From NCBI RefSeq assembly GCF_013408825.1, contig NZ_JACCBZ010000002.1, forward strand, positions 604,806-668,805: a DNA stretch of 64,000 nucleotides. Reading direction: 5' to 3'. The stretch comes from Mucilaginibacter tundrae. Lineage in GTDB: Bacteria; Bacteroidota; Bacteroidia; Sphingobacteriales; Sphingobacteriaceae. Below are positions 30,206 through 51,044 of this stretch, in pieces. The notes below the pieces were generated by a model. The model saw only the letters and a list, made by a program, of their open reading frames with translations, was not told the origin of the DNA and searched no databases. Positions within the stretch are counted from its first letter, which is position 1. Every line of letters starts with the position of its first letter. The position numbers and the translations under genes are program-made.

Positions 30206-31333
30206 CTAATTTTCGACTCCTTGCTTTATCGGAAGCCATCGTTCAGCATTTTTAAGATATATTTTATCAATAACGCTTTTGGGTAATTTCACCCCTCTAA
30301 GGTTGCCATATCCTGGTAAATTTATTTTATCATCTGTAACATAAAATTTCCAGTCGCTTAACCAGGTTGCATGAGTTTCTTTTTCTAATTCTTCCGGAAT
30401 CTTTGTATCGTTAATAGCCATATCAGTGCCGTAAAGCAGTCTGTCCTGATATTTTATAAAAAAATCACGAGTCTTTTGCCAATTTCTTAAAGCATGCAAC
30501 TGTAGATAGGGCATCCTCGAAAGGTCTACACTCATATTCGGGAACTTGTCCAAACGCTTTGCCAGTTCATCAAGGCTCCATTCCAAAGTCCCCAAATGTG
30601 CTCCTACAAAATTTAAATCCGGATGCTTTGTCAGCATATTATCCCTTGCATCTATCTGGTCATTATAGGTGGGATAGTCTGGATGGAGGTACATGTGGTA
30701 TTCAGGATGTTCCCCATAATAGTCTTTACCGAAAGCCATTTTATCCAATGGTTGCCAGCAATCCTTTGGCTCGCCATTATGCGCTATAACGGCGATATGA
30801 CCTTTTTCGAGATAATCAAGTACTGGCTTTAACCCCGGATCATCAACCATAACAAACCTCCCATTCTTATCTCGTAACGACATGCCAATATTTTTCCAGA
30901 TCTTAACAGCCCTGGCGCCATCTGAAAAGGATTGTTTTAAACTGGCAATAGTTTGTTCTGCCCAGTCCTTATCGCCCCAATTCTTTACCGAAAATGTAGT
31001 AGCAAAAACCATCGTTTTCGGGAAACGTTTGACATCATAAATGGCTATCTTTTGTTGCCCTTCCATAGGCAACCCAAATGGGCGATCATCAACAATATCC
31101 AGAAAACAAAAATTATCCCGCTGTGCCTGTTTTATGAAAATATCTTGATAAGTATTTAAATGGATATGCGTATCAAACTTTTTGACAGAATAAAAATCGT
31201 TTAGCGTGTAGTATTGCTGTGCCTTATTTTCAGCTAGATGTCGATCCTGACTTAGAGCAATAAATGGGAAACAAAACCTTAGTATGATAAAGCAAAGAAG
31301 AAACGCATTAACATTAATTTTTGGCTTTATCAT
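30206..31333 (-). CDS. Exported amidohydrolase (Amidohydrolase_2-like)
   Basis: The protein is 375 residues with a signal peptide ending near IALSQ (residue 29). The TIM-barrel metal motif is FDTHIH (His56, His58). Later metal and catalytic motifs are VIAHNG, FVGAHLGTLEW and LLYGTDMAIND. It would act in the periplasm on an amide, lactone or similar bond. It is the last gene of the nahK operon, 11 bp below the mutase, which hints at a role in processing the same amino-sugar substrate. The exact reaction is unknown. It is not a NagA sequence. Confidence 0.78.
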   Translation of the reverse strand: MIKPKINVNAFLLCFIILRFCFPFIALSQDRHLAENKAQQYYTLNDFYSVKKFDTHIHLNTYQDIFIKQAQRDNFCFLDIVDDRPFGLPMEGQQKIAIYDVKRFPKTMVFATTFSVKNWGDKDWAEQTIASLKQSFSDGARAVKIWKNIGMSLRDKNGRFVMVDDPGLKPVLDYLEKGHIAVIAHNGEPKDCWQPLDKMAFGKDYYGEHPEYHMYLHPDYPTYNDQIDARDNMLTKHPDLNFVGAHLGTLEWSLDELAKRLDKFPNMSVDLSRMPYLQLHALRNWQKTRDFFIKYQDRLLYGTDMAINDTKIPEELEKETHATWLSDWKFYVTDDKINLPGYGNLRGVKLPKSVIDKIYLKNAERWLPIKQGVEN

Positions 31334-31344
31334 CTCGAGTCAGT

Positions 31345-32730
31345 TTAAATCCCGGCAATTACTTTAATAGCTGAAATAATTTCCTGTGCCAACCCGTTAG
31401 CGTCTTCAGTTGTGGCTGCCTCGGCATATATCCTGATCACCGGCTCGGTATTTGATTTGCGCAGGTGCACCCATTGTTTATCAAATTCAATTTTCAAGCC
31501 GTCGATAGTACTATAAGGCTGGTGTTGATATTTAAGCTCCATCTTTTTCAACAAGCCATCAATATCCATACCTTCGGTAAGGGTAATTTTGTTTTTCGAG
31601 ATGTAGTATGCAGGGTAGGTTGCTCTTAATGCCGATACCGTTTTACCGGTTTTAGCCAGATACGTTAAAAATAACGCGATACCAACCAAAGCATCGCGAC
31701 CGTAATGCAATTCAGGATAAATGATACCGCCGTTACCCTCACCGCCTATAACCGCATTGGTTTCTTTCATTTTGGTAACCACATTAACCTCACCAACGGC
31801 GGAGGCATTGTAAACGCCGCCATTCAATTCAGTCACATCTCGCAAAGCACGGGTTGATGACAGGTTGGATACCGTATTGCCCGGATTATGCTGTATAATA
31901 TAATCGGCAACAGTTACCAGCGTATATTCTTCGCCAAACATGGCACCGTTCTCATCTACAAAACATAGGCGGTCAACATCCGGGTCAACGGCAATGCCTA
32001 AGTTTGCTTTAGCCTCGGTTACTTTGCTTGATAAAGCCACCAGGTTCTCAGGCAGCGGTTCAGGATCATGCGGGAATTGGCCGTTTGGCGTACAGAATAA
32101 CTCCTCTATTTGTGTAACGCCTAATGCACTCAATAAAGCGGGTATAAATATCCCGCCTGATGAGTTTACACAATCAATAACTACTTTAAAATTAGCTTTA
32201 GTGATAGCCTCAACATCAACCAATGGCAAAGCCAAAATTTTGTCGATGTGTTTTTGCAGGTAAGTATCATCTGTGGTTAGTTTGCCGATTGCGTCAACTT
32301 CAGCAAAATCAAGATCGCTGTCTTCTGCTATTGCTAAAACAGCTTGTCCTTCAGCATCATTTATAAACTCGCCATATGCATTTAATAATTTAAGCGCGTT
32401 CCACTGTTTAGGATTATGACTTGCCGTAATGATAATACCACCGCCTGCTTTTTCATCAGGCACGGCAACTTCAACTGTTGGCGTTGTTGACAGGCCGATA
32501 TCAACCACATCAATACCAATGCTCATCAACGTACCTATAACCAGGTTTTTAACCATTTCGCCCGAGATGCGTGCATCGCGGCCTATCACTACTTTACTGA
32601 TGCCTGTAGTTTGCAGTACCCAGCGGCCATAAGCTGCAGTGTATTTAACAATATCATTTGGAGTAAGGCTATTGCCGGGTTTACCACCTATGGTTCCCCT
32701 AATGCCGGAGATTGATTTAATTAAAGTCAT
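31345..32730 (-). CDS. GlmM-type phosphohexosamine mutase
   Basis: This 461-residue alpha-D-phosphohexomutase has the phosphoserine loop ITASHNPKQWN (Ser104), the magnesium loop DPDVDRLCF and a sugar-binding loop with GEGNGGIIYPE. Bacteroidota homologues are usually called phosphoglucosamine mutase, which interconverts the 1- and 6-phosphates. It lies 12 bp after the nagB fusion gene and is followed by the amidohydrolase. That setting suggests a catabolic role, turning the 1-phosphate made by the NahK-like kinase into the 6-phosphate. It could still be the essential cell-wall enzyme. Confidence 0.88.
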   Translation of the reverse strand: MTLIKSISGIRGTIGGKPGNSLTPNDIVKYTAAYGRWVLQTTGISKVVIGRDARISGEMVKNLVIGTLMSIGIDVVDIGLSTTPTVEVAVPDEKAGGGIIITASHNPKQWNALKLLNAYGEFINDAEGQAVLAIAEDSDLDFAEVDAIGKLTTDDTYLQKHIDKILALPLVDVEAITKANFKVVIDCVNSSGGIFIPALLSALGVTQIEELFCTPNGQFPHDPEPLPENLVALSSKVTEAKANLGIAVDPDVDRLCFVDENGAMFGEEYTLVTVADYIIQHNPGNTVSNLSSTRALRDVTELNGGVYNASAVGEVNVVTKMKETNAVIGGEGNGGIIYPELHYGRDALVGIALFLTYLAKTGKTVSALRATYPAYYISKNKITLTEGMDIDGLLKKMELKYQHQPYSTIDGLKIEFDKQWVHLRKSNTEPVIRIYAEAATTEDANGLAQEIISAIKVIAGI

Positions 32731-32742
32731 TATGTTTTGTTG

Positions 32743-34662
32743 TTAGAACTTCCACCTCACAAATGCTTCCATGGCCTCATATTCTGCCAAACCAAGCTGG
32801 TTGTATATCCTTGCTGTTTCGCTTGTGCGGTCTTCAGCGCGTACCCAAAACTCGCGCGCATCATCACCCGGGAAAACCGGCCTGTCCTTTTGCGACTGAT
32901 GTTTAAAAATAGCCAAACGTTTGCGTTCCACTTCTTCAGGGGATAATGGTACACACATTTCAATTTCGTGGGTCTCAAACTCAAACCAAGCACCACGATA
33001 TAACCATAACCAGCAATCTTTAACCCACTCTTCGGTTTTACCCAGGCGTTTTAAAGCTTCCAGAATGATATTGAAACAGGTCTCATGCGTTCCATGAGGA
33101 TCAGCAAAATCTCCAGCGGCATAAACCTGATGCGGTTTTACTTGTTGCAGCAAAGTCATGGTTTGTTGGATATCGTCCTCGTAGGATACATCTTTGCTTA
33201 CCTTCCTCCTGTTGTAAAAGGGCAGGTTTTGAAAATGGATATGATCATCATCCAACCCAACAAAACGGGCACCGGCAATAGCTTCTCCTTTGCGGATCAA
33301 ACCTTTAATGGTTTGCAATTCTTCCGGATCAGTTTGATTAGGCTGTTTTGCGCTGATGAATGAACGGGTGGCATCGTACAATTTCTCAATATCCCCATAA
33401 TTCACGTTTTGCGATTTGGAAAAATCAAGCGAAAATTCAATATATCTTAAAGCGTCATCATCCCAAACGGCGGTATTGCCTGATGTTTGGTAGGCCACAT
33501 GCACATCATGGCCCTGATCTGCTAAACGGATGAATGTGCCACCCATCGAGATCACGTCATCATCCGGGTGTGGTGAAAATACGATCACACGTTTTTTAGC
33601 AGGGTTTGCTCTTTCAGGGCGCTGACTGTCGTCAGCATTTGGTTTACCCCCCGGCCAACCGGTTATGGTATGCTGCAGCTTGTTAAATATATGTATATTG
33701 ATGTTATAAACCGGGCCTTTTTCGGTAGCCAATTGGGCCATGCCGTGGTTATTATAATCATCCTCGGTTAACTTTAGAATCGGTTTATTTAACGTTTTGG
33801 ATAGCCAGATAACCGCTTTTTTAATTAAAGATTCTGTCCAAACACAATCCTTCACCAACCATGGGGTATTGAAACGAGTTAGCTCTGAGGCGGCATCCGT
33901 ATCAACAATAAATTCTACATGATCTGAAAGTTGTAAATAAGTGGCCGGTACATCTGCAGAAATTTCACCTTCAACTGCTTTCTTCAATATCGGAGCTTTT
34001 TTAGCGCTCCAGGCCATTAGGATAATTTCACGGGCTTTGAATATGGTACCAATACCCATGGTGATAGCTTTTGTTGGCACATTAACTTTTCCACCAAAAT
34101 CATGCGCGGCATCGCTGCGGGTTAATTCATCCAACGACACTAAACGTGTACCTGAATTTGGTGCCGAGCCCGGCTCGTTAAAACCGATGTGGCCAGTACG
34201 CCCAATGCCTAATATTTGTATATCCAAGCCACCTAGTGCCGAGATCTTTTGCTCATAGGCCAGACAAAAAGCGGCAATATCCTCCTGCTTTAATGTACCA
34301 TCAGGGATGTTTACATTATTTAGATCGATATCCACATGGCCAAACAAATGCTCTTTCATAAAAGCATTATAGCTTTGGGCGGCGGTTGGCGCCATCGGAT
34401 AGTATTCGTCGAGATTAAATGTAACTACATTTTTAAAGCTCAAGCCGTCTTCTGTATGCAGGCGAACCAATTCACGATATACTGCAATGGGGGTTACACC
34501 TGTGGCAAGTCCTAAAACGGCTTTTTCACCTTTACTGGCTTTTTTTTTAATGACTTCGGCTATGCGTTTTGCAACTATTTTTGATGCGGTGAGCTTGTCG
34601 GGGTATACCGTTACCGGTAGTTTTTCAAATCTTGTTTCTTCTAAAAGATTTAAACGTGGCAT
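32743..34662 (-). CDS. nagB: Glucosamine-6-phosphate deaminase fused to a PIG-L deacetylase domain
   Basis: The protein is 639 residues, against about 260 for NagB alone. Residues 1-290 carry the deaminase motifs: GLATGVTPIAVY, FNLDEYYPM (Asp85), GIGRTGHIGFNEPG and TRSDAA. After a linker, residues 355-639 form a PIG-L/LmbE N-deacetylase with FSPHPDDDVISMGGT (362-376) and the later zinc-ligand region ADPHGTHET. Fusions of this type occur in Bacteroidota. NagB turns glucosamine-6-phosphate into fructose-6-phosphate and ammonia. The fused deacetylase could supply that substrate from its N-acetyl form, replacing NagA. That substrate is inferred. Confidence 0.92.
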   Translation of the reverse strand: MPRLNLLEETRFEKLPVTVYPDKLTASKIVAKRIAEVIKKKASKGEKAVLGLATGVTPIAVYRELVRLHTEDGLSFKNVVTFNLDEYYPMAPTAAQSYNAFMKEHLFGHVDIDLNNVNIPDGTLKQEDIAAFCLAYEQKISALGGLDIQILGIGRTGHIGFNEPGSAPNSGTRLVSLDELTRSDAAHDFGGKVNVPTKAITMGIGTIFKAREIILMAWSAKKAPILKKAVEGEISADVPATYLQLSDHVEFIVDTDAASELTRFNTPWLVKDCVWTESLIKKAVIWLSKTLNKPILKLTEDDYNNHGMAQLATEKGPVYNINIHIFNKLQHTITGWPGGKPNADDSQRPERANPAKKRVIVFSPHPDDDVISMGGTFIRLADQGHDVHVAYQTSGNTAVWDDDALRYIEFSLDFSKSQNVNYGDIEKLYDATRSFISAKQPNQTDPEELQTIKGLIRKGEAIAGARFVGLDDDHIHFQNLPFYNRRKVSKDVSYEDDIQQTMTLLQQVKPHQVYAAGDFADPHGTHETCFNIILEALKRLGKTEEWVKDCWLWLYRGAWFEFETHEIEMCVPLSPEEVERKRLAIFKHQSQKDRPVFPGDDAREFWVRAEDRTSETARIYNQLGLAEYEAMEAFVRWKF

Positions 34663-34696
34663 ATGTATTTAGTATTTGGGTATGATGTATCTTCAC

Positions 34697-35860
34697 TCAG
34701 GCATCCTGCTTTATAACAGCTGGTGCTTCAATTACTGCACCGGATTTAACATTCTTCCATTCTGTTTGCACAATATTTTCCAGTTCCTTCCTATTTAATT
34801 CAAGCATTTTAAATAACTGCATTTGCGCGTGGGTACGTTGCAAATTATGTTCAGCAAAATGTGTTTTATAATACACATCTCCTTCCAAATAATCTGTTAA
34901 AAACCTGATGGATTGCATATAAGGCAACAGCAATACGCCCATTATCAACGATTTTAGTTCCGCTTCGGTAAGGAATGATTTGGTTTGGCTTAAATATCCT
35001 TTGGTAAACTCAGCAAACAAAGGAATATTTAGCTGAATGGCGTTTAAATCAGCTTCGTCTTCCACAGCAGTATTAATTATTGTACGGATGGCATCACCAA
35101 AATCAAAAGCGACATAGCCCGGCATTACAGTGTCCAAATCAATAACGCATTGGATATTATTATCCTTATCCAACAGGATATTGTTGAATTTGGTATCATT
35201 ATGGGTGATGCGTACCGGCAATATACCTGCCTTTCCCATTTTAGGGATCTCGTTCATAGCGACGGCCCAACTATTCAGGAAATCAACTTCTGCTTGTACT
35301 TTTTTTAATCTGCCAGCAGCATTCTTTTTGATCGCATCCTTAAAATCAGCCAGGCGCTTTTCAATATTCAAAAAATCCGGTATCGTATCGATCAATACTT
35401 TTGGATCAAGATCCGATAATAAGTACTGGAACTTGCCGAATGCTACCCCACCCTGATGTGCTTGTTGTTCTGTAGTAACGAGGTCGTAACTTTTAGTATC
35501 CTGTAAAAACCAGGTCATACGCCAGTAATTGTCCTGCTCGTCTTTGTAATAATATTCTCCTGTTTTTGTGGGAATAAGCGTTAGTACTTCTTTATCAGGA
35601 TTGCCACCTGCTTTGCTTACTTTTTCTTTCAGATGATTTACAACATGTAGCATGTTGTTCATTAAACCATCGATATTTTTAAACACAAAATTGTTTATTT
35701 TTTGCAATAGGTAGCCCGGATGAACCCCTGTTTTGCCTTTAACCAGGTATGTATCATTAATATGTCCCGATCCGAAATTTGAAATTTCGAAATTTCCACC
35801 TTCCGTACTAAAATGTGCAATGATATCGGTAAAATTATAAGGCATTGCGTTGTTATTCAT
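34697..35860 (-). CDS. nahK: NahK-like N-acetylhexosamine 1-kinase
   Basis: This 387-residue protein belongs to the aminoglycoside-phosphotransferase superfamily. It has a Gly-rich ATP loop (NFGSGHINDTYLV), a catalytic loop RITHNDTKFNNILLD and a metal motif VIDLDTVMPG. Start ATG 35860 is used; ATG 35845 is also possible. NahK phosphorylates GlcNAc and GalNAc at C1. It heads an operon with nagB/PIG-L, a hexosamine mutase and an amidohydrolase. A promoter box and a LacI-type operator lie upstream. A homoserine kinase-like alternative is unlikely because of the amino-sugar context. Confidence 0.85.
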   Translation of the reverse strand: MNNNAMPYNFTDIIAHFSTEGGNFEISNFGSGHINDTYLVKGKTGVHPGYLLQKINNFVFKNIDGLMNNMLHVVNHLKEKVSKAGGNPDKEVLTLIPTKTGEYYYKDEQDNYWRMTWFLQDTKSYDLVTTEQQAHQGGVAFGKFQYLLSDLDPKVLIDTIPDFLNIEKRLADFKDAIKKNAAGRLKKVQAEVDFLNSWAVAMNEIPKMGKAGILPVRITHNDTKFNNILLDKDNNIQCVIDLDTVMPGYVAFDFGDAIRTIINTAVEDEADLNAIQLNIPLFAEFTKGYLSQTKSFLTEAELKSLIMGVLLLPYMQSIRFLTDYLEGDVYYKTHFAEHNLQRTHAQMQLFKMLELNRKELENIVQTEWKNVKSGAVIEAPAVIKQDA

Positions 35861-38018: not shown

Positions 38019-39044
38019 TTAAAAAGGATTGTTATTAATATATTTTTCCCAAGCCCACGCTGATGACAACATGCTGGTTAAATCGTTTTCGGCTTTCCAG
38101 TTTAGTTCTTTCTCGGCCAGGCTTACATCACCCCATATTTTTACAATATCACCATCTCGTGGCGGGCCAATACGATAATTCAATTGCTTACCGGCCACTT
38201 TTTCAAAAGTGTGGATAAGTTCCAATACCGAATATCCGTTACCTGTACCTACATTAAACACCTCGTAAGCAGCAGTCATTTGTTTAGCTTCCATACGCTT
38301 AATGGCGGCAACATGTGCCTTAGCCAAATCGACCACATGAATAAAATCGCGGATGCAACTACCGTCGGGCGTATCAAACTTATCGCCAAAAACAGTTAAT
38401 TGTTCACGTTTGCCGATGGCTGTTTGAGTGATAAAGGGCACCAGATTTTGTGGCACGCCATTCGGCAACTCGCCAATTAAAGCTGATTGATGCGCGCCAA
38501 CCGGGTTAAAGTATCTCAAAGCGATAACTTTTAGATCATCATTTGCATTAGCGGTTTCCTTTAGGATCTCCTCACCTATTTGTTTGGTGTTGCCGTAAGG
38601 TGATTCCGCTTTTTTTATCGGCGCCTGCTCGGTAACAGGCAGGGTATCCGGCTCGCCGTAAACGGTGCATGATGATGAGAATACAAAATTCAAAGGCTTA
38701 CCCGCCAACGAGTTTAACAAGTTAACCAGCGTTGATATATTATTATCATAATACAATAGTGGATTTTTAACTGATTCGCTTACCGATTTTGAGGCAGCAA
38801 AATGTATTACGCCACTTATATCAGTATGCTCTTTTAAAAATTCAATTATCGACGATTTATCACGCAGATCGAGCTTTACAAAAGCAGGTTTTTTGCCTGT
38901 GATAGTTTCGATCTGTGTTAGTATCTTAATATCAGAGTTGGATAAATTATCTACGATAACAACTTCGTAGCCATTATTTTGTAATTCAACAACTGTGTGT
39001 GCACCTATGTAGCCCGTGCCCCCCGTAACCAATATCTTTTTCAT
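38019..39044 (-). CDS. galE: UDP-glucose 4-epimerase
   Basis: This 341-residue extended short-chain dehydrogenase has the NAD motif GGTGYIGAHT (8-17), a Ser-rich SSSCTVYG region and the catalytic Tyr150 and Lys154 in SPYGNTK. It interconverts UDP-galactose and UDP-glucose, and in many members also UDP-GalNAc and UDP-GlcNAc. It sits inside the sugar-use locus, 5 bp below the DUF4874 gene and 10 bp above the glycosidase. That is evidence that galactose or galactosamine is released by the locus. Confidence 0.94.
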   Translation of the reverse strand: MKKILVTGGTGYIGAHTVVELQNNGYEVVIVDNLSNSDIKILTQIETITGKKPAFVKLDLRDKSSIIEFLKEHTDISGVIHFAASKSVSESVKNPLLYYDNNISTLVNLLNSLAGKPLNFVFSSSCTVYGEPDTLPVTEQAPIKKAESPYGNTKQIGEEILKETANANDDLKVIALRYFNPVGAHQSALIGELPNGVPQNLVPFITQTAIGKREQLTVFGDKFDTPDGSCIRDFIHVVDLAKAHVAAIKRMEAKQMTAAYEVFNVGTGNGYSVLELIHTFEKVAGKQLNYRIGPPRDGDIVKIWGDVSLAEKELNWKAENDLTSMLSSAWAWEKYINNNPF

Positions 39045-39049
39045 TATTA

Positions 39050-40576
39050 TTATTTAACCACTAAAGTTCCTTGTAATTTATTATAACCTGTGGTGGATTC
39101 CCAGGTATTGTCGTTAGCTAATTGTATACTGAAATTTGGATTTGTATTTAATGTCGCTGCGTTATCAGGCAGATTTAGCAATACATCATAATTGCCCGCT
39201 GTAATACCCGATGGCATAGTTAATGTTTGCTGCAGATTAATGGTTCCTGTGTACCATTTGCGGATATCGGTATTAAACGCCGCCACGAACGCCTTACCTG
39301 ATGTTTGGTTGCGCAGAATTAACTGCACCGGCCTTGGATTGAAGGGTGAAGCATAACCAATATTGGCAATTGTTAGGTTGACGCTGATATTTCCGGTTGC
39401 ACTTGCTGATGTTGGCAGTTCTGCCTTGCGCAACACGAAACGGTAACCCAATTTTTGTTTGATACTATCCATACAACCTCCGGAAACCCAGTTGTTATTT
39501 AAATCAAGATCGTAAACCGCGTTTAAAAAGCTGTAATGAAATTCAGCGAATTCTGTTTTCGCTATACCGCTTGGTTCGCACTCATTTTGTGGGGTGTAAG
39601 CATCGGTACAGGTTTCACCGCCAACAGCAGTGTACTTGGTATCGTATGCTTCGTAGTTTCTCAAAGCCGTGGTCGCGTCAGCTTCAGGGGTCGACGAGTT
39701 ACCATAGTCGAAATAAGTACCCTCATCATTGGTGCTTGATAAAAAGCAATCGTTATGAAAGCCTATACGAGCCTTATCAGTTTCGGTAAATGCTTCGGCA
39801 TCAGTCATGGCCGGGGAGTTTACGCTTGCCTGGATACCATAAACGTACCTTTCTTTAAATTGTGGTGTACGCACCTGCACCATACGATCTGTAGGTACAG
39901 CAGCTAACATCGCTTTTAACACATCAATACGGTCCTGCCAGTTTTGGTCTAGCAATTTTCCCTGACCGTTAGAAGATGCATCACCAAAATAATCGGTATA
40001 ATAATTCTCGCCATAAATACCTATAAAGCCTAATTGCATAACCGCAATCACATCTTCATTTGCCTGTAAATGAGGCGCCAGTTGACTAATATGCTCTAAT
40101 ACTATCGCCTTAGTTGCATCACCATAAAGAGGGCAAACAGATTGCTCTGCGCAAGTACCTGAATGTGTAGTATTGGTATAAATAAAACGTGGGATCAACT
40201 TTACGCCAGCGGCTCTCGCGGTAGCGCAATCTTGATCGAATTTGGTTAAAAAATCGGCAGAGATAGGGGTGGTTACAAAGCTATCAAGCACGTATTCAAC
40301 AAAAACCAAACTACAAGATACAGTGTACGTTGCGCCAGTGATACTTGTACTGTTACGATAACTGGCCAGTAAACTTTGGCTAAGTGGAATGTAATTGCTT
40401 GAATGGATCTCAGCATACTGAAAAAATCCTCTTTCAGGGTTTACAATATCCAGTGTACTCTCGGTATAAGTAGCAGTTGTTGCCGTATCCGTAGGAGTAC
40501 TTTTAATGGCTAGTTCTTTTTTACTACACGACATTAAGAATAATGCTGATGCGGCCAGGAGTGCTAATGCTTTCAT
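39050..40576 (-). CDS. DUF4874/DUF4832 lipoprotein
   Basis: The protein is 508 residues with a lipoprotein signal ending LFLMSC (Cys17). The mature N-terminal domain contains IVNPERGFFQYAEIHSS, the typical opening of DUF4874, and continues with LIPRFIYTN in a TIM-barrel-like pattern. The C-terminal DUF4832 part holds QKLGYRFVLRKAELP and a beta-sandwich end. The pair occurs in many Bacteroidota polysaccharide loci and is suspected to bind or cut sugars, but no activity is established. It is probably surface-exposed. Confidence 0.8.
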   Translation of the reverse strand: MKALALLAASALFLMSCSKKELAIKSTPTDTATTATYTESTLDIVNPERGFFQYAEIHSSNYIPLSQSLLASYRNSTSITGATYTVSCSLVFVEYVLDSFVTTPISADFLTKFDQDCATARAAGVKLIPRFIYTNTTHSGTCAEQSVCPLYGDATKAIVLEHISQLAPHLQANEDVIAVMQLGFIGIYGENYYTDYFGDASSNGQGKLLDQNWQDRIDVLKAMLAAVPTDRMVQVRTPQFKERYVYGIQASVNSPAMTDAEAFTETDKARIGFHNDCFLSSTNDEGTYFDYGNSSTPEADATTALRNYEAYDTKYTAVGGETCTDAYTPQNECEPSGIAKTEFAEFHYSFLNAVYDLDLNNNWVSGGCMDSIKQKLGYRFVLRKAELPTSASATGNISVNLTIANIGYASPFNPRPVQLILRNQTSGKAFVAAFNTDIRKWYTGTINLQQTLTMPSGITAGNYDVLLNLPDNAATLNTNPNFSIQLANDNTWESTTGYNKLQGTLVVK

Positions 40577-40604: not shown

Positions 40605-42215
40605 TTATAGTTTCTTAAAAACAGGCACATCGTCCAGTTCTACCTCAACAATCTTTACCGACGGCCCCTTGAATATTTTTCCATCTTCACTTTGCCATTT
40701 ACCTTTCGGGAATATTATTTTGCGGCGATCACCTTTCTCTAAAACGGGTGCCACCATTATTGTCTTGCCTAGCATGAACTGGTCTTTAACCGTATCTAAT
40801 CCTTCGCCGGGGAATTCGTACTCCATATTCCGCACAACAGGTTCTCCGGTTATGGCTGATTGCTTAACCGTTTTCATGATATATGCGGTATATTTTTGCC
40901 TAAGTGCGACAGCTTTTTTTACCGCTGCCAAGTGGCTTGCATCCAGTATGCGCCATGGCGCGACTGAAAACTGCATCATCGGCATTAAAGCGCTGCACTG
41001 TGCAGATCTCACCACCAAATCCTGATCAAAATGATTTAGGCCTATGAATGACCCATACTCTCCGCCGCCAATCATATCCGGGCAAGTAAACTGATAACCT
41101 AATAAGCCCGAGGCTGTGATATTTGGTATTAGTTTTTGCAGGTCGGTCCAGTTATGTTTTTTATCGCGAAGCCTTTCTGCCAATGGCTGACCTCCTCGTT
41201 TCCACATTGCCCTGTATTCATTGAGCGGATAGGATAAACCGATGCTTCCCCACAATTCCGATTGCTGGTTTGGTGTTGCTGGTTTAAAAGAGATGATGTT
41301 TGAAGGATAAAACTCCATATCTCCGGCATCAAACTTAAAGCCATCGAGGCCGTAATTGGTTACCATGTTTTGCAGCTGGCCTTTATACCATGCTACCGCA
41401 TCGGGATTTGTAAAATCAAGTTCGGCGCTGTAGCCATTCCACCAGCTGACGATTGCAGGCTTGGATGCTTTATCCCACGTTAAGGTTTTATCTCCTTGAT
41501 CGTCCAGTAAAAGCAGTTTTTTTGCTTCTAGATCCCTTGATATTTCACTATCAGATGATATGAACGGACAAACCCAAACCATTACTTTAAAACCCATTTG
41601 ATGGAGTTCGACAATCATTTGTTTGGCATCCGTAAAACGATCCTTTCTAAAGGCGAACTTGCCATAGAAATCCATCCAGTTGTCATCAATCATCAATACA
41701 CCCGGAGGGAATCCGTTATCAATAATTTGGTGGGCATATTTTAAAATATCCTGTTGATTTTGGTTATAAACCAGCTCGATCCAAGTATTATATTGCGGAC
41801 GGGCGAATAGAAGGCTATCCGGCATTTGGCCACTTGCCGCGAATTTGCTTTTGCTTGCAGCTTTAAACGCGTCGGCTAAAGTTTTGCCTGCGGTTACAAC
41901 TAAGACACTATCTGATGTTTTATCTATAATCAGTTGATTACCTTGAATGGTAAATTCAAACGGCTGATCGCTCCATATATAACGGCCTTTGGTTGATAAC
42001 AAGAGTGGTGCAGACTGATTGTCCTTATTATCACCATACAAGTTGAAACTATAACCATTTTGAAAAGGCATTACGTGACCGTCATCAACAGTGCCCCCAA
42101 ACCATTTCTCCCCGGCCTCAATCTGTATATTTTTTTTAACAGATTGATTTGTTTGGGCAGACGATACCCCGCATACCCATATTAAAAGGCAGGTTACAAT
42201 TGTTAACTTATTCAT
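40605..42215 (-). CDS. GH31 family glycosidase, MYORG/alpha-galactosidase-like
   Basis: The protein is 536 residues, short for GH31, with a signal peptide ending SSAQ (residue 21). Barrel motifs are GVLMIDDNWMDFYG, VMVWVCPFIS, DGFKFDAGDMEF with nucleophile Asp296, and YQFTCPDMIGGGEYGSF with acid/base Asp380. The KFDAGD / PDMIGG pair is the form found in MYORG and in GH31 alpha-galactosidases such as that of Pseudopedobacter saltans, not in alpha-glucosidases. Together with galE next door, alpha-galactose or alpha-GalNAc is the likely sugar removed. It is 8 bp below the DUF5009 gene. Confidence 0.86.
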   Translation of the reverse strand: MNKLTIVTCLLIWVCGVSSAQTNQSVKKNIQIEAGEKWFGGTVDDGHVMPFQNGYSFNLYGDNKDNQSAPLLLSTKGRYIWSDQPFEFTIQGNQLIIDKTSDSVLVVTAGKTLADAFKAASKSKFAASGQMPDSLLFARPQYNTWIELVYNQNQQDILKYAHQIIDNGFPPGVLMIDDNWMDFYGKFAFRKDRFTDAKQMIVELHQMGFKVMVWVCPFISSDSEISRDLEAKKLLLLDDQGDKTLTWDKASKPAIVSWWNGYSAELDFTNPDAVAWYKGQLQNMVTNYGLDGFKFDAGDMEFYPSNIISFKPATPNQQSELWGSIGLSYPLNEYRAMWKRGGQPLAERLRDKKHNWTDLQKLIPNITASGLLGYQFTCPDMIGGGEYGSFIGLNHFDQDLVVRSAQCSALMPMMQFSVAPWRILDASHLAAVKKAVALRQKYTAYIMKTVKQSAITGEPVVRNMEYEFPGEGLDTVKDQFMLGKTIMVAPVLEKGDRRKIIFPKGKWQSEDGKIFKGPSVKIVEVELDDVPVFKKL

Positions 42216-42223
42216 CTTGCGGT

Positions 42224-43336
42224 TTATATTTTGATAAACACTTTATGCTTACTCAGGAAATAACACAGGCACCACTCAGCAAATAAGGTAACCAGTGAAG
42301 AAATTACAGCTATAATATTTACGGGTATAATGGTAAATCCTAAAAATCCTTTAACAAAAATGCCTATGGCACCATTGAACCATTGCGCGCCCACGGTTTC
42401 AAAAAACAAGTAAATAAATATGGAATTCATACCTACTACTATACAAACCCATGCATATTTATTTACTTGTTTAATATCAACCAGCCAATATAAGAAAGCC
42501 ATAATGAGCAATACCCAACCACCGGATGCAAAAGTGAAAGAGCTAGTGCTTATGCGTTTTATAATTGGGGTAATATTGGTTATATCAAGGCCGAAACCCA
42601 ATATCAACCCAATAACTCCTGCTATTACCAGGTAAAGTATTTTTTTATTAGCTGATTCTTTGGAGATCAATAATTTACCCGCTAAAACACCCCAAATGGT
42701 ATGCGCGGCAGTCGGTATTATATTGATTGCAACCCAGCCATCGTTATTGATCTTACCCATCAACACGGTATCCATATAAGCGCCGAAATTGTGGAACTCT
42801 ACATAGGGCTGAGTGAAGCCCGGCATTAATATATTGCGATATAATACATCGGTAATGATTAATAAAGCAACAGAGAAAGCTATCTGGAACCAAAATGACC
42901 TGTTAATAATCAAATAAGCGATAAGCGTTGTAAAAGCCAGTTGTGTTAACACGTTCCATAATTCGAACACTAATTTACCGGCATAAACACAATGCAGGCC
43001 TGTACCCAGTATAAACAGTTTTATCGACCGTATTGCAATGTGCTTAAAGTTTTGCTGCCATGTTACCCCTTTCTGTAATTTTGAATTGTAGGAGATATAC
43101 ATTGCCGCCCCGGCCATCAACATGAAGGCAGGCTGCACGCAATCCCAAAAGTGGAGACCATGCCATGGGTCATGGAAAAACTGGTTAATAAAACCGTCGG
43201 CTACACCTCCTAAATGCAGGGCATGCAAGTTTTCGTACACCAGGCAGCTTTCGCCGGCCAGCAGAATCATGATAAGCCCCCGCATTACATCTAAGGAGAT
43301 GAGCCTGTTTGACGATTTTGGAATGATGTTATCCAT
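42224..43336 (-). CDS. DUF5009 / HGSNAT-like membrane acetyltransferase
   Basis: This 370-residue protein has about ten membrane segments. The N-terminal signature is RLISLDVMRGLIMILLAGES, followed by FFHDPWHGLHFWDCVQPAFM with conserved His residues. The family is related to heparan-alpha-glucosaminide N-acetyltransferase and bacterial NagX. Those move acetyl groups across a membrane onto an amino sugar. In a sugar-use locus with amino-sugar enzymes it may N-acetylate free hexosamine before uptake. That function is inferred. Confidence 0.78.
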   Translation of the reverse strand: MDNIIPKSSNRLISLDVMRGLIMILLAGESCLVYENLHALHLGGVADGFINQFFHDPWHGLHFWDCVQPAFMLMAGAAMYISYNSKLQKGVTWQQNFKHIAIRSIKLFILGTGLHCVYAGKLVFELWNVLTQLAFTTLIAYLIINRSFWFQIAFSVALLIITDVLYRNILMPGFTQPYVEFHNFGAYMDTVLMGKINNDGWVAINIIPTAAHTIWGVLAGKLLISKESANKKILYLVIAGVIGLILGFGLDITNITPIIKRISTSSFTFASGGWVLLIMAFLYWLVDIKQVNKYAWVCIVVGMNSIFIYLFFETVGAQWFNGAIGIFVKGFLGFTIIPVNIIAVISSLVTLFAEWCLCYFLSKHKVFIKI

Positions 43337-43369: not shown

Positions 43370-44245
43370 TTATTGGCTGATATCAAGTGTTATTGGTGCT
43401 AAGCCATTGCCCGGCATCCAACCTATATTGTTATAAGCATCATCACTTACAACAATAGCTATTTTCATTGCGGAACCAGTTAAACCGCTAATTTTACTGC
43501 GTGACAAAGCCATTTCGAAAGTAGTAACCCCGTTTACTTCCTGTACTGTACCTACCGTAAAAAATCCGGCGATACTTAGTGCATTGAATGAAAATGCATC
43601 CTGAGCACCGGTGTGCTGGTATTGAACAAGCGGTGTTCCCGTATTATCAAGCACTTGTCCTTCAAGCAAATAATCATAACCGCCACCGGGTATCGACCCG
43701 GTGATCAAACCTGTTGAGGCACTATTATCCGTATCCAGGTAAAAGTCGAATATATTTGCATCTGCAACATGTATAGCTGCTTTCATGTAGATGTAAATAT
43801 TCTGGCTATCATAGTCAAACTTAGCTTCCTGCACTACACCACCAAGTGCTAATGACGGCGGTATTACCACATTTGATATTGTATCCCAATCAGCCAAACT
43901 ATTGTCATTCAACAATATTGGTGAACTTTTTGAAACGTGTATAATGGTTGACCCGTTTATTACACTACCATTATTTAATGTGGCATATAAGGTAACTACG
44001 TGTTTACCTTTTGATTTGTAAGTATGAACCGGGCTGGTTTCAGTTGAACTGGTGCTGTCGCCAAAATCCCACCTGAATGATTTGGCATCGGTTGTGCTAT
44101 TTTTAAACGTAACAGTATAGCTTTTTACTGAATCAGTAAAAACCACTTCCTTTACCAGTATTTCGGGGTTTTTCTTACAGGCCTGGAATCCGATCGCAAG
44201 GCTTCCTAATAAAAGACAGCCTAATATATATTTGAATTTTTTCAT
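43370..44245 (-). CDS. PKD-domain surface lipoprotein (SusE/F position)
   Basis: The protein is 291 residues from ATG 44245. An ATG at 44266 would add seven polar residues before the lipoprotein signal (KFKYILGCLLLGSLAIGFQAC). A PKD domain covers about residues 30-105 (FRWDFGDSTSSTETSPVHTY). The rest resembles a carbohydrate-binding sandwich (FDYDSQNIYIYMKAA, FDFYLDTDNSASTG). Its place right after susD is that of a SusE/SusF-like glycan-binding protein on the outer surface. Confidence 0.8.
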   Translation of the reverse strand: MKKFKYILGCLLLGSLAIGFQACKKNPEILVKEVVFTDSVKSYTVTFKNSTTDAKSFRWDFGDSTSSTETSPVHTYKSKGKHVVTLYATLNNGSVINGSTIIHVSKSSPILLNDNSLADWDTISNVVIPPSLALGGVVQEAKFDYDSQNIYIYMKAAIHVADANIFDFYLDTDNSASTGLITGSIPGGGYDYLLEGQVLDNTGTPLVQYQHTGAQDAFSFNALSIAGFFTVGTVQEVNGVTTFEMALSRSKISGLTGSAMKIAIVVSDDAYNNIGWMPGNGLAPITLDISQ

Positions 44246-44284
44246 ATCATTTTTATTAAAAAACAATTAAATATTTACTGTTAA

Positions 44285-45811
44285 CTATGGATTTTGAGTA
44301 GCTGCTGTATTAGACAGTATCTCGGCCTCCGGTATATAATAAATGATCTTGGTACTGGTATATGGAATGATCATGTTAGGGTAGTTAGTAGGGGGAACAC
44401 TTAAGTTAATATCCGCTGCTTGTAAACCTTGCAAGTGATAACCCCAATAAGTTTTATTCATACTTTGTTTGTTGCGGTATACAGTAAAGGTACGGTCAGC
44501 CTCAAACGCTAATTCTAATCTTCTTTCCTGTAATACCACGCCTAATGCAGTTTGGCCACCAGGTACAGTACCATTGTAAAGCGCTCCTGATAAACCTCTG
44601 TTCGACCGGATGAAATCCACATCGGTAAGTGCTGATGATGTTTGACCCAAATTTGCTTCGGCCTCTGCCCTGTTCAAATACATTTCTGACAGACGGAATA
44701 TAATTGGCGAACTTAGTGTAGGGCTACCTCCCTGGCCAGAGAATTTAGTTACATAATAAATGGGAATGCCATTTTTGTATTGTTGCGCACCAGTTGAATC
44801 AACATCATCATCAATATATGAAGTACGTACATCTGATGGGTTTTGAGCATACAAATCGCGTAGTGGCTGCGAAGCATATTCCTCGCCCCAGCCAGAGTTA
44901 CCGTTAGAATAGTATTGAGAAGCGATAGACCCTAATTTCCCATAATCATCTAAAGCATCAAATGCTATACAGAATATAGTTTCTTTGTCAGTTTGCGCAT
45001 TCGCAAACATTGTTTTAAAATCTGAAGCAGTTGCTTCTGTAAACTTACCAGAATTGATCACTGCATTACTATAAGTGATAGTGCTTTGATAATCCCCTTC
45101 GTAAAGAGAAACACGTGATAATAAAGCTTCCGCTGCTTCTTTTGTTGCAAATGTAACGCCTCTTGATGCACCGTCAGTCATTAAAGTAGATGCTTTGATA
45201 GCATCGGCAATTACTTGTGTATACACATCTTTAACTGATGAACGTGCTTTTATGGCAGGATCGGTAGTCGAAGTCCTCAAAACTATGCCAGGGGCAGTTG
45301 GATTGATGGTGTATGGTTCTCCAAAAAAGCGAACTAAATTAAAGTGACAGAAAGCGCGTAAAAAATAGCACTCGCCAACTAGTTGCTGTTGAGCAGCTGT
45401 TGGGTTGCTTATTTTTGATCCTGCTTCAATAACGGTATTCGCGTCACTAATAATTTTGTAGGATATGTACCAGAAGTAACTGGCATTTTCCTGCGTTGGC
45501 GTAAAACCTAAAGAGAACGTCAGAAAAAATGGATCGGTTGTTACTTGTCCGCATACCACATCATCCGAAGCAAAATCAGACATCTGGAAATACTGGCGCA
45601 GGTACATATTGTTCAAATCGGTAGTACCTTCAAACACCTCGTGATCCTTGAACAGGGCATATGCACCATTTACCGCGTTTAATAAACCATCGGGTGTTGT
45701 TGCTAATGATGCAGTGGTTACCGAATTGGTAGGATTATCTTCAAGCTTACAGCCTGAGTATATAATGAGCATTGAAAATGCTGCTATAAGTAATAATTTA
45801 TTTTTCATCAC
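44285..45811 (-). CDS. susD: SusD/RagB-family glycan-binding lipoprotein
   Basis: This 508-residue protein has a lipoprotein signal ending SGC (Cys21). TPR-like helices include GECYFLRAFCHFNLVRFFGE, the standard SusD motif, and VLQERRLELAFEADR appears near the C-terminus. It caps the TonB-dependent transporter encoded just upstream (8 bp gap) and presents glycan to it at the cell surface. The ligand cannot be read from sequence, but the neighbours point to a galactose- and amino-sugar-containing glycan. Confidence 0.95.
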   Translation of the reverse strand: MMKNKLLLIAAFSMLIIYSGCKLEDNPTNSVTTASLATTPDGLLNAVNGAYALFKDHEVFEGTTDLNNMYLRQYFQMSDFASDDVVCGQVTTDPFFLTFSLGFTPTQENASYFWYISYKIISDANTVIEAGSKISNPTAAQQQLVGECYFLRAFCHFNLVRFFGEPYTINPTAPGIVLRTSTTDPAIKARSSVKDVYTQVIADAIKASTLMTDGASRGVTFATKEAAEALLSRVSLYEGDYQSTITYSNAVINSGKFTEATASDFKTMFANAQTDKETIFCIAFDALDDYGKLGSIASQYYSNGNSGWGEEYASQPLRDLYAQNPSDVRTSYIDDDVDSTGAQQYKNGIPIYYVTKFSGQGGSPTLSSPIIFRLSEMYLNRAEAEANLGQTSSALTDVDFIRSNRGLSGALYNGTVPGGQTALGVVLQERRLELAFEADRTFTVYRNKQSMNKTYWGYHLQGLQAADINLSVPPTNYPNMIIPYTSTKIIYYIPEAEILSNTAATQNP

Positions 45812-45819
45812 CTGATCTT

Positions 45820-48800
45820 TTAAAATTTAATATTAATGTTCAGTAAAAACTGGTGGTTATCCGGATACTTGAAATCGGCAACACCTGGAGTAACAAAATT
45901 ACCCGGAGTGATAGTTGTTGCAGGATCCTGGCCCAGATAGCGGGTGAACGTGTAAACATTATCGGCGCTTAATGATAGATTAATATCACTTAATTTAAGA
46001 CTTTGTGCAAAAGCTTTAGGTAATGAATAACCGAAAGCTATATTCCTTAAACTTAGGTAGCTGCCGTTTTTAAGATACCTTGTTGATACAGAAGTTGAGT
46101 TGGTATTGTTTTCAGGGCTTGGCTCAGTGGCTATATCACCTGGGTGAGTCCATACGCTGCTACCTTTAGGCAAAACTATCTGGTTTAACAAAGGCTCACT
46201 GCCATCATTTTCAACCTCAGCAAGGTTAGCATTGTAAACTTTATTACCGTACTCGAAGTAAGTATTAATCCTCAGGAAGAATTTCTTGTACTTGAACTCA
46301 TTATTAAAACCTCCCTGGAATTTAGGCAATGCCGAACCTTGTTCCTGCAAAGTTGCAGAAGCGTAATTAGAGGTCACCGATGTTGATATTACCTTACCAT
46401 TTGCATCTTTGTTTTCAACAAGCCACTGCGGCGCGCCTGTTTGCGGATTTACACCCTCCCATGTAGGCATGTAAAACTCATACAAGTTCCCCCCGGTACG
46501 GTATATTTGTGATACAGCATCTTCGCCGGTTGAAATAACCGTTGAAGGGAAATCCTGCAATTTATTATTGTTAAAGCTGATGTTAAAGTCTGTTGTCCAT
46601 TGGAAATCTTTATTCTTGATGTTTTGGCTGCTGATCGCAAACTCCAAACCATTGTTAAGTACCTGTCCAGTGTTTTCCCACTTAGTTTCAAAACCAACTG
46701 ATAATGGTTGAGCAACCTGCAACAGTAAGTTTTTAGTAACGTTGTGATAAGCATCAACAGTAATGTTAATACGATGAAACAAACCAATGTCAAAACCAGC
46801 ATCTAACTGATGTTTGCTTTCCCATGTTAAGTTAGGGCTCTCTAATTGCAATGGCGTTGCCCCTACCGCTGAGTTGTATTGGCTGGTAAGCGAATACAAA
46901 CCTAAATATCTGGATGCGCCAATATCCTGAGTACCTGTTATACCGTAGCTTAAACGTAGTTTTAAATTATCAACTGTATGGCTGTCCTTTAAAAAATCCT
47001 CGTTGCTTACTAACCAGCCACCTGATATAGACGGGAATGATCCATATTTATTACCCGGAGCAAATGCCGATGAACCATCAATCCTGTATGAACCGCTTAA
47101 AAAATAACGGTCTTCATAGCTATAGTTCACTTGTGATAAATAAGATAAAATTGATGGGCTGTCGGGTGAACCATTTACCGCCTGGCTATTTGCAACTACG
47201 TCTAAAGATTCAAGCCCGATCGGCAAGCCCTTACCTGAGGCACCAACAGTATTAGTTTGGCTGCCTTCAAACTCTACACCTGTTAAACCATTAATAGCAC
47301 TCTTACCTAATTTGAAATCAAATTTCAACAAGTTCGTTGATATACCACCGTAGTCATATGCACTTTGATCATTTATATATCCTGTACCATGGTAAACACC
47401 TTCAACAGTTGGGCTATAAAAAGTAGAGTTATAGTTATAAGAAGCCGAACCACGGTTAGTAGTATTGAATGTTAACCATGATGTTATTGGCAGGTTTAAA
47501 GCCAGGTCATAATTGATATCGAAACCTTTAAACGGATGGTCCGAATTATCTACAGTATTCACCGGGTTTGTTTTATCCCTTGACCACCATGTGAACTTAG
47601 AGTTACCATCAACATAAATAGCATTATGATTTGCATCATAAGGGTTATCCCAAGGTAAATTTAAGTAGGCGTAATAAATATCATTATAATCATAGCTTTC
47701 ACCTTCATTACCGCTAATGTTAATATTGTTGGTAAGGGTAATTTTATCGGTGATATGGTAAGTATTGTTAGACCTTAAGTTAACACGTTTATAATCCGTA
47801 TTCATAAAAGTTCCACCTTCGTCGTAATAAGTAACGCCGAAATAGTAATCGTTTTTAGCGGTTTTACCCATTGCAGAGAAATAATAATTTTCTACAGGGG
47901 CCGGTTTAAACATGGTGGTTAACCAGTTGGTATTGGTATTTAATATAGAAGCAGGGCGCTCTGATTGAAACTGCACCAAATCAATCACATAACTGTTACC
48001 AGTTGCTCCCGGGATATAATCACGGAATAACTGCTTTTGATTTTCATAAAGTTCGCTGCTATTCATCATGGTCATGGTACCAAAATCCGGTGTTCTAAAG
48101 CCAGTTACTGCTTGAAACTCGTATTGAGTTTTATCGCCTTTAGCTTTCTTGGTAGTAATGATGATTACACCGCCGTTAGCTTGTGAACCATAAATGGCAG
48201 TCGCGCCTGCATCCTTTAATACAGTAACACTTTCTACATCATTCGGGTCATAATCACCACCGATGATACCATCTACTACAATTAGCGGGGCTTGTGCGGC
48301 GTTTACAGAAGATACACCCCTCAACCTGATCTCGGATACACTACCCGGAGCACCTGAAGAGTTTACTACCTGCAAGCCAGATACTTTACCTTGAAGCATT
48401 TCGCCGATATCGTCAGAAGTGACATCTTTTAACTTCTCTGCCGATACTACCGCGATTGCACTTGTTAAGTTACCTTTCTTTTGAGATGAATAACCGGTTA
48501 CAACAACCTCCCCCAATTGCTTGTTATCTTCTTCCATCAAAATTGATATTTTGGATTGGTCGGCAGCAACCGGAATTACTTTAGTAGTATATCCAATTGA
48601 GTGGGCTTCAAGCGTAACAGCGCCCGAAGCAACGTTAATTGAGAAAAAGCCATCAGGGCCCGACGCTACCGCGCCTTTAGTAGTGCCTTGTAGTTGAATA
48701 ACAACTCCTGGCAGAGCGGAGCCATCCTTCGCTGTAACCTTTCCTTTTATTGCCCTTTCCTGGGCATAAAGGTTACAATAGCTAACTACTAATAAAAGAA

Positions 48801-48828
48801 AGAGTAGGAGTTTTTTCAAATTAAACAT
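45820..48828 (-). CDS. susC: SusC/RagA-family TonB-dependent transporter
   Basis: The protein is 1002 residues. A signal peptide ends YCNLYAQ (residue 22). A carboxypeptidase-like regulatory domain follows (AIKGKVTAKDGSALPGVVI). The plug contains DIGEMLQGKVSGLQVVNSSG and APLIVVDGI, the SusC signature. The remainder is a 22-strand barrel ending NHQFLLNINIKF. It imports oligosaccharides across the outer membrane with SusD, using TonB energy. It starts the main locus operon under a promoter with two predicted operators (49012 and 48915). Confidence 0.96.
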   Translation of the reverse strand: MFNLKKLLLFLLLVVSYCNLYAQERAIKGKVTAKDGSALPGVVIQLQGTTKGAVASGPDGFFSINVASGAVTLEAHSIGYTTKVIPVAADQSKISILMEEDNKQLGEVVVTGYSSQKKGNLTSAIAVVSAEKLKDVTSDDIGEMLQGKVSGLQVVNSSGAPGSVSEIRLRGVSSVNAAQAPLIVVDGIIGGDYDPNDVESVTVLKDAGATAIYGSQANGGVIIITTKKAKGDKTQYEFQAVTGFRTPDFGTMTMMNSSELYENQKQLFRDYIPGATGNSYVIDLVQFQSERPASILNTNTNWLTTMFKPAPVENYYFSAMGKTAKNDYYFGVTYYDEGGTFMNTDYKRVNLRSNNTYHITDKITLTNNINISGNEGESYDYNDIYYAYLNLPWDNPYDANHNAIYVDGNSKFTWWSRDKTNPVNTVDNSDHPFKGFDINYDLALNLPITSWLTFNTTNRGSASYNYNSTFYSPTVEGVYHGTGYINDQSAYDYGGISTNLLKFDFKLGKSAINGLTGVEFEGSQTNTVGASGKGLPIGLESLDVVANSQAVNGSPDSPSILSYLSQVNYSYEDRYFLSGSYRIDGSSAFAPGNKYGSFPSISGGWLVSNEDFLKDSHTVDNLKLRLSYGITGTQDIGASRYLGLYSLTSQYNSAVGATPLQLESPNLTWESKHQLDAGFDIGLFHRINITVDAYHNVTKNLLLQVAQPLSVGFETKWENTGQVLNNGLEFAISSQNIKNKDFQWTTDFNISFNNNKLQDFPSTVISTGEDAVSQIYRTGGNLYEFYMPTWEGVNPQTGAPQWLVENKDANGKVISTSVTSNYASATLQEQGSALPKFQGGFNNEFKYKKFFLRINTYFEYGNKVYNANLAEVENDGSEPLLNQIVLPKGSSVWTHPGDIATEPSPENNTNSTSVSTRYLKNGSYLSLRNIAFGYSLPKAFAQSLKLSDINLSLSADNVYTFTRYLGQDPATTITPGNFVTPGVADFKYPDNHQFLLNINIKF

Positions 48829-49200: not shown

Positions 49201-49845
49201 TTAGGCGAACATAATTGTACCAAAAAACTGTGGTAAGTGAAAGTTTGGTTGAGAGTGGTTTATGGGATTCCAGCTGAGATAATGCGGCACGGGAAGATCG
49301 TCGCCACACTTAAAAAAATTAGCCTTGCAATGTTGTCCGACTAATGAACTTATGGCATTATGTATAAATAGAGCAAAAGGAATACTTAACGTAAGCTCCC
49401 ACTCAGTATTTCCTTTATCATCCGGCGAAACACTAATGCTATATTGGCTTTTTATTTGGGAAATTATTATCTCACTTAACATTTTACGATCATTATTATC
49501 TGACCCGTAGCCGATTAGTGCAGTCCCAACAGGATTAAATTCCAAATTATAATAATTTTCATCATCGCCGAAGGCAATAAAAAACTCCACACAGCTATCT
49601 TTATAAACAGGGTCGTTTATTTGATGATAGTCGGCTTTAACGTACTTTTCAGTAACAAAATATTTCAGGAGGATATTATCTTCGGTATAAGCCATAGAGA
49701 ATGATACTAACGGCTTATAGCCATTATCGCTCCATAATAAGTTATCGACGCTTTGCCTTGTGCTGTTGTTTAACAATGAAGAAACAACCGCCATATCATT
49801 ATTAAGTTCATGATTGGAAATAAAGGCAATATGGAGGTTTTTCAT
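49201..49845 (-). CDS. Unexported CBM9-like protein
   Basis: The protein is 214 residues with no signal peptide (start MKNLHIAFISNHELNNDMAV). The core VYKDSCVEFFIAFG followed by DDENYYNLEFNPVGTALI is typical of CBM9-like domains. Those are found in sugar-binding and heme-binding proteins. A solo cytosolic copy is unusual. It has its own promoter box and operator between it and the regulator gene. It may sense or buffer an imported sugar. The function is unproven. Confidence 0.75.
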   Translation of the reverse strand: MKNLHIAFISNHELNNDMAVVSSLLNNSTRQSVDNLLWSDNGYKPLVSFSMAYTEDNILLKYFVTEKYVKADYHQINDPVYKDSCVEFFIAFGDDENYYNLEFNPVGTALIGYGSDNNDRKMLSEIIISQIKSQYSISVSPDDKGNTEWELTLSIPFALFIHNAISSLVGQHCKANFFKCGDDLPVPHYLSWNPINHSQPNFHLPQFFGTIMFA

Positions 49846-51008: not shown

Positions 51009-51044
51009 CACTGGATACAATATTACAAATATCAATATAAAAAC

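Follow-up and report, generated by a model that had tools for sequence, protein, structure and literature searches.

A probable operon for catabolism of N-acetylgalactosamine through its 1-phosphate in Mucilaginibacter tundrae

Introduction

In the lacto-N-biose/galacto-N-biose (Lnp) pathway of Bifidobacterium, a 1-kinase acts first, after which exchange with a uridine diphosphate (UDP) sugar and GalE-type epimerisation lead to N-acetylglucosamine 1-phosphate (GlcNAc-1-P). Here we describe an operon in a 64,000-nucleotide stretch of Mucilaginibacter tundrae DNA (contig NZ_JACCBZ010000002.1, positions 604,806 to 668,805; the window) that combines a sugar 1-kinase, a GlmM-type mutase and a protein in which the deaminase NagB is fused to a PIG-L N-deacetylase domain. 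A relative of the kinase, BT4240, is required for growth of Bacteroides thetaiotaomicron on N-acetylgalactosamine (GalNAc), as its deletion stops growth (PMC11992087). BT4240 prefers GalNAc ~275-fold over GlcNAc but also makes GlcNAc-1-P from GlcNAc, and a Bifidobacterium kinase takes both sugars (PMC11992087). The enzymes that follow the kinase in B. thetaiotaomicron are not named in the main text of that 2025 paper, where deaminase, epimerase, mutase and deacetylase have zero mentions. The Aga pathway for GalNAc was recorded in 76 of 397 gut genomes, from Actinobacteria, Firmicutes and Proteobacteria, in a 2017 survey (PMC5583593).

We propose, with a probability of roughly 0.58, that the window carries a polysaccharide-utilisation operon for GalNAc-containing glycans in which GalNAc is catabolised via its 1-phosphate. 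SusC/D-like proteins and glycosidases (GH31, GH36-like) would deliver the sugar, which the kinase would convert to GalNAc-1-P. A nucleotidyltransferase encoded elsewhere in the genome (C8:62361) and GalE would take GalNAc-1-P via UDP-GalNAc and UDP-GlcNAc to GlcNAc-1-P. A dedicated GlmM copy and the fusion would then move the phosphate to O6, remove the acetyl group and deaminate the product, yielding fructose-6-phosphate, acetate and ammonia.

Results

The operon and its kinase

The genes for the kinase, the fusion and the mutase form a tight series on the minus strand, with gaps of 34 and 12 bases in the list of open reading frames (ORFs). Family scans and this spacing confirm a preliminary description of the window that had assigned the three families to one operon, although that description missed GalE and the glycosidases and its end points cut through the operon. 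The latter spans ~48828 to 31345, possibly reaching 30206, and adds genes for SusC/D-like, NagX-like, GH31, GalE and GH36-like proteins (Table 1).

The kinase, encoded by a single-copy gene, matches PF01636 (APH; 53 bits), and its best solved relative is the N-acetylhexosamine 1-kinase 4wh1 (E 5e-69, residues 13-364). It thus has both the APH fold and a sequence relation to a solved NahK, which places it in the NahK family. The earlier suggestion that the sugar enters as a 1-phosphate is supported. In a tree built by a quick method, from which BT4240 itself is absent, the kinase falls within a 53-row Sphingobacteriaceae clade (support 99) nested in a 106-row clade (96) that includes kinases of Bacteroidaceae.

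Whether GlcNAc or GalNAc enters had been left open. We infer the substrate from relatives: GalNAc is likelier because of the preference of BT4240 and because close relatives of the kinase are linked to GH109, an alpha-N-acetylgalactosaminidase family identified here by PF21252 and PDB 2ixa (E 8e-145). The genome itself encodes a GH109 outside the operon, 75% identical to that of a relative. A more direct route would have GlcNAc phosphorylated at O1, shifted to the 6-phosphate by the mutase and processed by PIG-L and NagB, without NagK, NagA or UDP-sugars. The adjacency of kinase, fusion and GlmM genes, in the window as in L087 and L146, would suit such a route, as would the Bifidobacterium kinase that accepts GlcNAc; however, the selectivity of BT4240 speaks against it (PMC11992087), and GalE and the GH109 linkage would be left unexplained. 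Taken with the distribution of nagA described below, this makes the direct route distinctly unlikely.

Kinase neighbourhoods in relatives

We fetched 73 kinase regions, of which 72 gave a kinase ORF (the distant L115 gave none), and divided them into a close set (n = 43, ~47-48% identity or more, chosen by us from 57 places besides the window) and a distant set (n = 29); two of the 78 kinase places below 40% identity were examined (L102, L111). Within 8 kb of the close kinases, on either strand, CBM9_2 proteins recur in 27 regions, GH109 in 21, SusC in 18, NagX-like proteins in 15, the fusion in 14, MFS and DUF4832 proteins in 13 each, GlmM in 7 and GH31 in 5. The distant regions, counted in the same way, contain the nucleotidyltransferase in 16 cases, GH109 in 10, an SSS transporter in 8, MFS proteins in 4, the fusion in 3, and GalE and GlmM in 1 each. 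In 14 of the 43 close regions the fusion lies on the same strand as the kinase within 8 kb, and hence the arrangement exceeds chance.

A further 80 named loci, five of them repeating earlier regions, gave 71 with a kinase ORF (nine had none at the length limit). There, same-strand neighbours were the nucleotidyltransferase (14), GH109 (8), GalE-like proteins (7) and the fusion (1). Overall, 30 of 143 rows have the nucleotidyltransferase gene immediately before that of the kinase, with five locus pairs counted double; the duplicate pairs are L193/L094, L195/L090, L196/L089, L199/L152 and L238/L161. In Flavicella sediminum (L235) and in L093, nucleotidyltransferase, kinase, SDR epimerase, MFS protein, fusion and GlmM form a same-strand run with a divergent LacI gene.

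The nucleotidyltransferase neighbours in distant taxa would also fit a salvage system, in which the kinase supplies UDP-N-acetylhexosamine for the cell envelope while the fusion and GlmM, a biosynthetic enzyme, balance the amino-sugar pool. Yet the strand run also encodes SusC/D-like proteins, glycosidases and NagB, as expected of a catabolic system, and deletion of the B. thetaiotaomicron kinase stops growth on GalNAc (PMC11992087), so that salvage is very improbable. A wider claim, namely that a distinct GalNAc pathway is common to Bacteroidota and several further phyla and consists of the kinase, a GalU-like nucleotidyltransferase, a 4-epimerase, a PIG-L acting on the 1-phosphate ahead of GlmM, and a fused NagB, with AgaK, AgaA, AgaS and NagA unneeded, is one we advance tentatively and consider rather unlikely.

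In Spirochaetes L218 there is a PIG-L-like ORF, recognised by motif only. Proteins of 443 residues (L266:3775-5106, Clostridia) and 476 residues (L251:1847-3277, Verrucomicrobia) have similar starts and accompany the kinase and NagB; the latter has a weak ROK match.

The NagB-PIG-L fusion

The fusion is a full-length member of NCBIfam NF002557 (1021 bits, cut-off 384). Its NagB domain narrowly exceeds the cut-off of the nagB model TIGR00502 (242.4 versus 236.9 bits), and its PIG-L domain matches PF02585 (62.3 bits, cut-off 28.2). The equivalents of Escherichia coli D72, H143 and E148, which we take to be functional residues of NagB, are retained in 52 of 52 distinct fusions from the loci and in all 120 listed database relatives. 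At the position of E. coli D141 the window protein has Thr instead of Asp. We considered whether this loss indicates a dead deaminase and rejected the idea: in 2bkv, the solved deaminase of Bacillus subtilis, this position is Asn, and Asp 141 therefore does not define the family.

The HPDD motif and a later His pair, presumably the metal site of PIG-L, are intact in the window fusion, in keeping with the proposed role of this domain as a candidate deacetylase. Each of the 51 distinct Bacteroidota fusions that we examined retains all five metal-site residues tested. This set is not a random draw; it comprises 20 from the kinase regions and the window, the second copy of this genome (C15) and the 30 best-scoring fusion loci, which lie far from a kinase as judged by comparing coordinates.

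A tree of these 51 proteins, with four outgroup rows added, unites the 16 that come from kinase regions of the host's family in one clade (support 100/99). The 31 kinase-unlinked fusions, C15 included, fall outside it in two groups, and seven of them are sister to the kinase-region clade with weak support. Because the kinase-region fusions are separate, the operon copy is likely an old, dedicated duplicate. The neighbours of the second copy (L047:10339-12345), named by eye, are genes of histidine-degradation type and a SusC/D-like pair.

Eleven proteins among the best 120 of 7957 matches are triple fusions of kinase, NagB and PIG-L. One, of 1017 residues, is encoded in an Opitutaceae metagenome-assembled genome (L261:9968-13021, plus strand); the ten others are P0122-P0131. 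Partial matches hinted at separate genes for NagB and PIG-L, an idea that we rejected: in six of seven regions (the seventh being L278) such a match sits at a contig end or no more than 200 bases from it, and we therefore regard these as cut genes.

Nag genes in the genome and the order

The fusion had been suggested to bypass a missing NagA, a view that did not survive a profile search of the whole genome: a clear nagA lies at C1:271027 (324 bits, cut-off 225.65), and the fusion is thus no replacement for an absent enzyme. As for NagK, the genome encodes four ROK proteins, two of them repressor-like by eye and two below every curated cut-off, in a search that did not extend to BadF-type kinases. 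PF01182 occurs in the two fusions and in C1:610512 alone. The latter was discarded as a stand-alone NagB, since its motif looks like that of a 6-phosphogluconolactonase, and the fusions seem, by this profile, to be the only NagB-type deaminases of the genome, SIS-type deaminases not having been searched.

Across the order, the fusion model matches 120 of 121 genomes (118 above cut-off), and the proposed pathway offers a possible job for this protein. The kinase is found in 106 of 121 genomes of the order and 34 of 198 of the phylum (E 1e-20), and nagA in 111 of 121 (E 1e-40). Nine of the ten genomes without a nagA match have the fusion, and in one of the ten, G079, a single cluster (L182) encodes fusion, GlmM and kinase together, which agrees with the direct route from GlcNAc. 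However, the limit is strict: Bacillus subtilis, which possesses NagA, matched in the first search and dropped out at 1e-40. These absences are therefore leads rather than proof, and the presence of nagA in the M. tundrae genome further counts against that route.

Epimerisation at C4

With GalNAc as the likely substrate, formation of fructose-6-phosphate by NagB requires a prior inversion at C4. GalE, acting on UDP-sugars, and the GalU-like nucleotidyltransferase could supply this step. The nucleotidyltransferase (PF00483) has a profile that matches the uncharacterised 3pnn and then GalU enzymes, which disfavours a MurU/AmgK reading of its pairing with the kinase. At the C-terminal position that we take to be the gatekeeper of GalE (Cys in 3enk), the operon enzyme has Ile by alignment and motif, whereas eight short SDR epimerases of kinase loci, and that of L245, have Ser by motif. 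A PF00483 protein, GalY, has been predicted to substitute for GalT (PMC5583593).

GalNAc might also be degraded without epimerisation, through GalNAc-1-P, GalNAc-6-P, galactosamine-6-P and tagatose-6-P, with NagB acting like AgaI. Such a route would account for the lack of the nucleotidyltransferase from the operon and from the 43 close-kinase regions, and the NagB domain does match the galactosamine-6-P isomerase model at 111 bits. This score is far under the cut-off of 271, whereas the nagB model scores above its own, and GalE would be idle; we therefore judge the tagatose route improbable.

GlmM and the order of steps

The mutase matches the GlmM model TIGR03990 at 525.5 bits (cut-off 439). 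A second GlmM, 75% identical, is encoded at C3:469307, and a distant relative (30%) is also present. The usual substrate of GlmM is GlcN-1-P, and BshB, MshB and PIG-L act on alpha C1-substituted GlcNAc. The order proposed in the preliminary description, GlcNAc-1-P to GlcNAc-6-P to GlcN-6-P, is one possibility, but deacetylation of GlcNAc-1-P to GlcN-1-P before the mutase fits as well. The former asks GlmM to accept an N-acetyl sugar; in its favour, PIG-L and NagB are joined in one protein, and fusions often unite enzymes of successive steps. The latter asks PIG-L to accept GlcNAc-1-P, itself an alpha C1-substituted GlcNAc, and would leave GlmM with its usual substrate.

Findings that weigh against the proposal

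Several findings weigh against GalNAc catabolism through the 1-phosphate as set out above. The window operon has neither GH109 nor the nucleotidyltransferase, and its GH31 is closest to alpha-galactosidases (8j50). Around the close kinases, GlmM is as infrequent as noted above, GalE occurs in 5 regions and the nucleotidyltransferase in 0; when eight partners are scored on the same strand (fusion, GlmM, GalE, nucleotidyltransferase, GH109, NagX-like, MFS and GH31), 17 of the 43 close and 10 of the 29 distant regions have zero. The gatekeeper residue of operon-type GalEs is Ile or Val, which does not clearly mark the site as either open or closed. GH109 is a pointer to GalNAc rather than proof, because an uncharacterised GH109 has also been placed in hexuronate loci (PMC5507952). 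Finally, a full nagA is present, and PIG-L catalysis is not to be assumed, because the metal site is broken in Opitutaceae-type relatives, some of which are fused to the kinase as well: in 120 of 120 listed relatives of the triple fusion (P0121-P0240; those with a taxon name come from Opitutaceae and other Verrucomicrobia), three His and the first Asp are gone, and the second Asp is gone in 91, with the NagB residues retained. In these proteins PIG-L is conserved but apparently dead.

By extension, the PIG-L half of the window fusion might be structural, with NagA as the deacetylase, which would be compatible with the GalNAc pathway. Besides the Opitutaceae-type proteins, the prevalence of nagA in the order and a NagA-like gene beside the kinase and NagB in Clostridia L266 agree with this idea, but the intact metal site throughout the Bacteroidota fusions examined does not, nor does Verrucomicrobia L251, in which a stand-alone PIG-L and NagB lie near the kinase and an epimerase. 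A purely structural PIG-L is accordingly unlikely.

Other features of the locus

Table 1. Genes of the operon and its surroundings, in window coordinates
Feature	Coordinates	Strand	Basis or detail
N-acetylhexosamine 1-kinase family protein, probably GalNAc 1-kinase, 387 aa	34697..35860	-	PF01636, PDB 4wh1, kinase tree
NagB-PIG-L fusion, 639 aa	32743..34662	-	deaminase domain ~14-263, sugar N-deacetylase domain ~356-639
GlmM-type phosphohexosamine mutase, 461 aa	31345..32730	-	TIGR03990
Protein with GH36/GH27-like model, 668 aa	36002..38008	-	matches neither Pfam nor PDB by sequence
GalE UDP-hexose 4-epimerase	38019..39044	-	TIGR01179, 396.6 bits (cut-off 262.3)
DUF4874/DUF4832 protein	39050..40576	-	PF16173, PF16116
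GH31 glycosidase near solved GH31 alpha-galactosidases	40605..42215	-	PF01055; PDB 8j50, E 1.9e-203
NagX-like membrane protein, possible hexosamine N-acetyltransferase	42224..43336	-	NF046061, 102 bits (under cut-off 480)
PKD-domain protein	43370..44266	-	PF18911
SusD-like protein	44285..45811	-	named from sequence and place; homologues recur in kinase regions
SusC-like TonB-dependent transporter	45820..48828	-	named from sequence; homologues recur in kinase regions
CBM9_2 protein	49201..49845	-	PF16011; homologues are recurrent kinase partners
LacI-family regulator	49905..51035	-	PF00356
Amidohydro_2 protein, operon membership unsure	30206..31333	-	PF04909

In L087, the closest relative region, the Amidohydro_2 gene does not adjoin GlmM. 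Homologues of the GH36-like protein also lie near kinases in Verrucomicrobia (L234, L246). The CBM9_2 protein has no obvious signal peptide, and its homologues directly follow the kinase in 22 of 28 clustered cases. The NagX-like protein might N-acetylate galactosamine ahead of the kinase step. The DUF4874/DUF4832 protein is a candidate glycosidase; kinship with a galactosaminogalactan hydrolase was considered and dropped, as the PDB match was not convincing and word matching found no literature link, so the glycan would be a guess.

Comparison with known systems

The families are known; for their combination, word matching in open-licence papers found no description of this gene set, no pairing of NagB with PIG-L and no account of a UDP-sugar route for GalNAc. 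The AgaA/AgaS pathway resembles the proposed one in its starting sugar (PMC5583593). As a member of NF002557 (PRK02122, glucosamine-6-phosphate deaminase-like protein), the fusion belongs to a described family, but the model name gives the PIG-L half no reaction, and the window fusion belongs to an operon with a kinase. Unlike the PIG-L domain of the window, archaeal diacetylchitobiose deacetylase (Dac) and BshB are free-standing; their substrates are GlcNAc compounds that carry no sugar phosphate. The Lnp pathway shares a GalE-type epimerase with the operon. It differs in that the window system has the fused NagB-PIG-L and a GalU-like protein placed elsewhere in the genome; an LnpC-type uridylyltransferase was not among the scanned operon ORFs, a whole-genome LnpC/GalT search not having been made.

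The BT4240-50 mucin locus of B. thetaiotaomicron is likewise a SusC/D locus; it encodes a GalNAc 1-kinase of the APH family together with enzymes that release alpha-GalNAc (PMC11992087). There the kinase accompanies GH109, GH2 and MFS proteins, whereas the window operon lacks GH109 and has candidates for the later steps. Its gene set thereby names testable enzymes for what follows the GalNAc 1-kinase, and may fill this gap in GalNAc catabolism by Bacteroidota.
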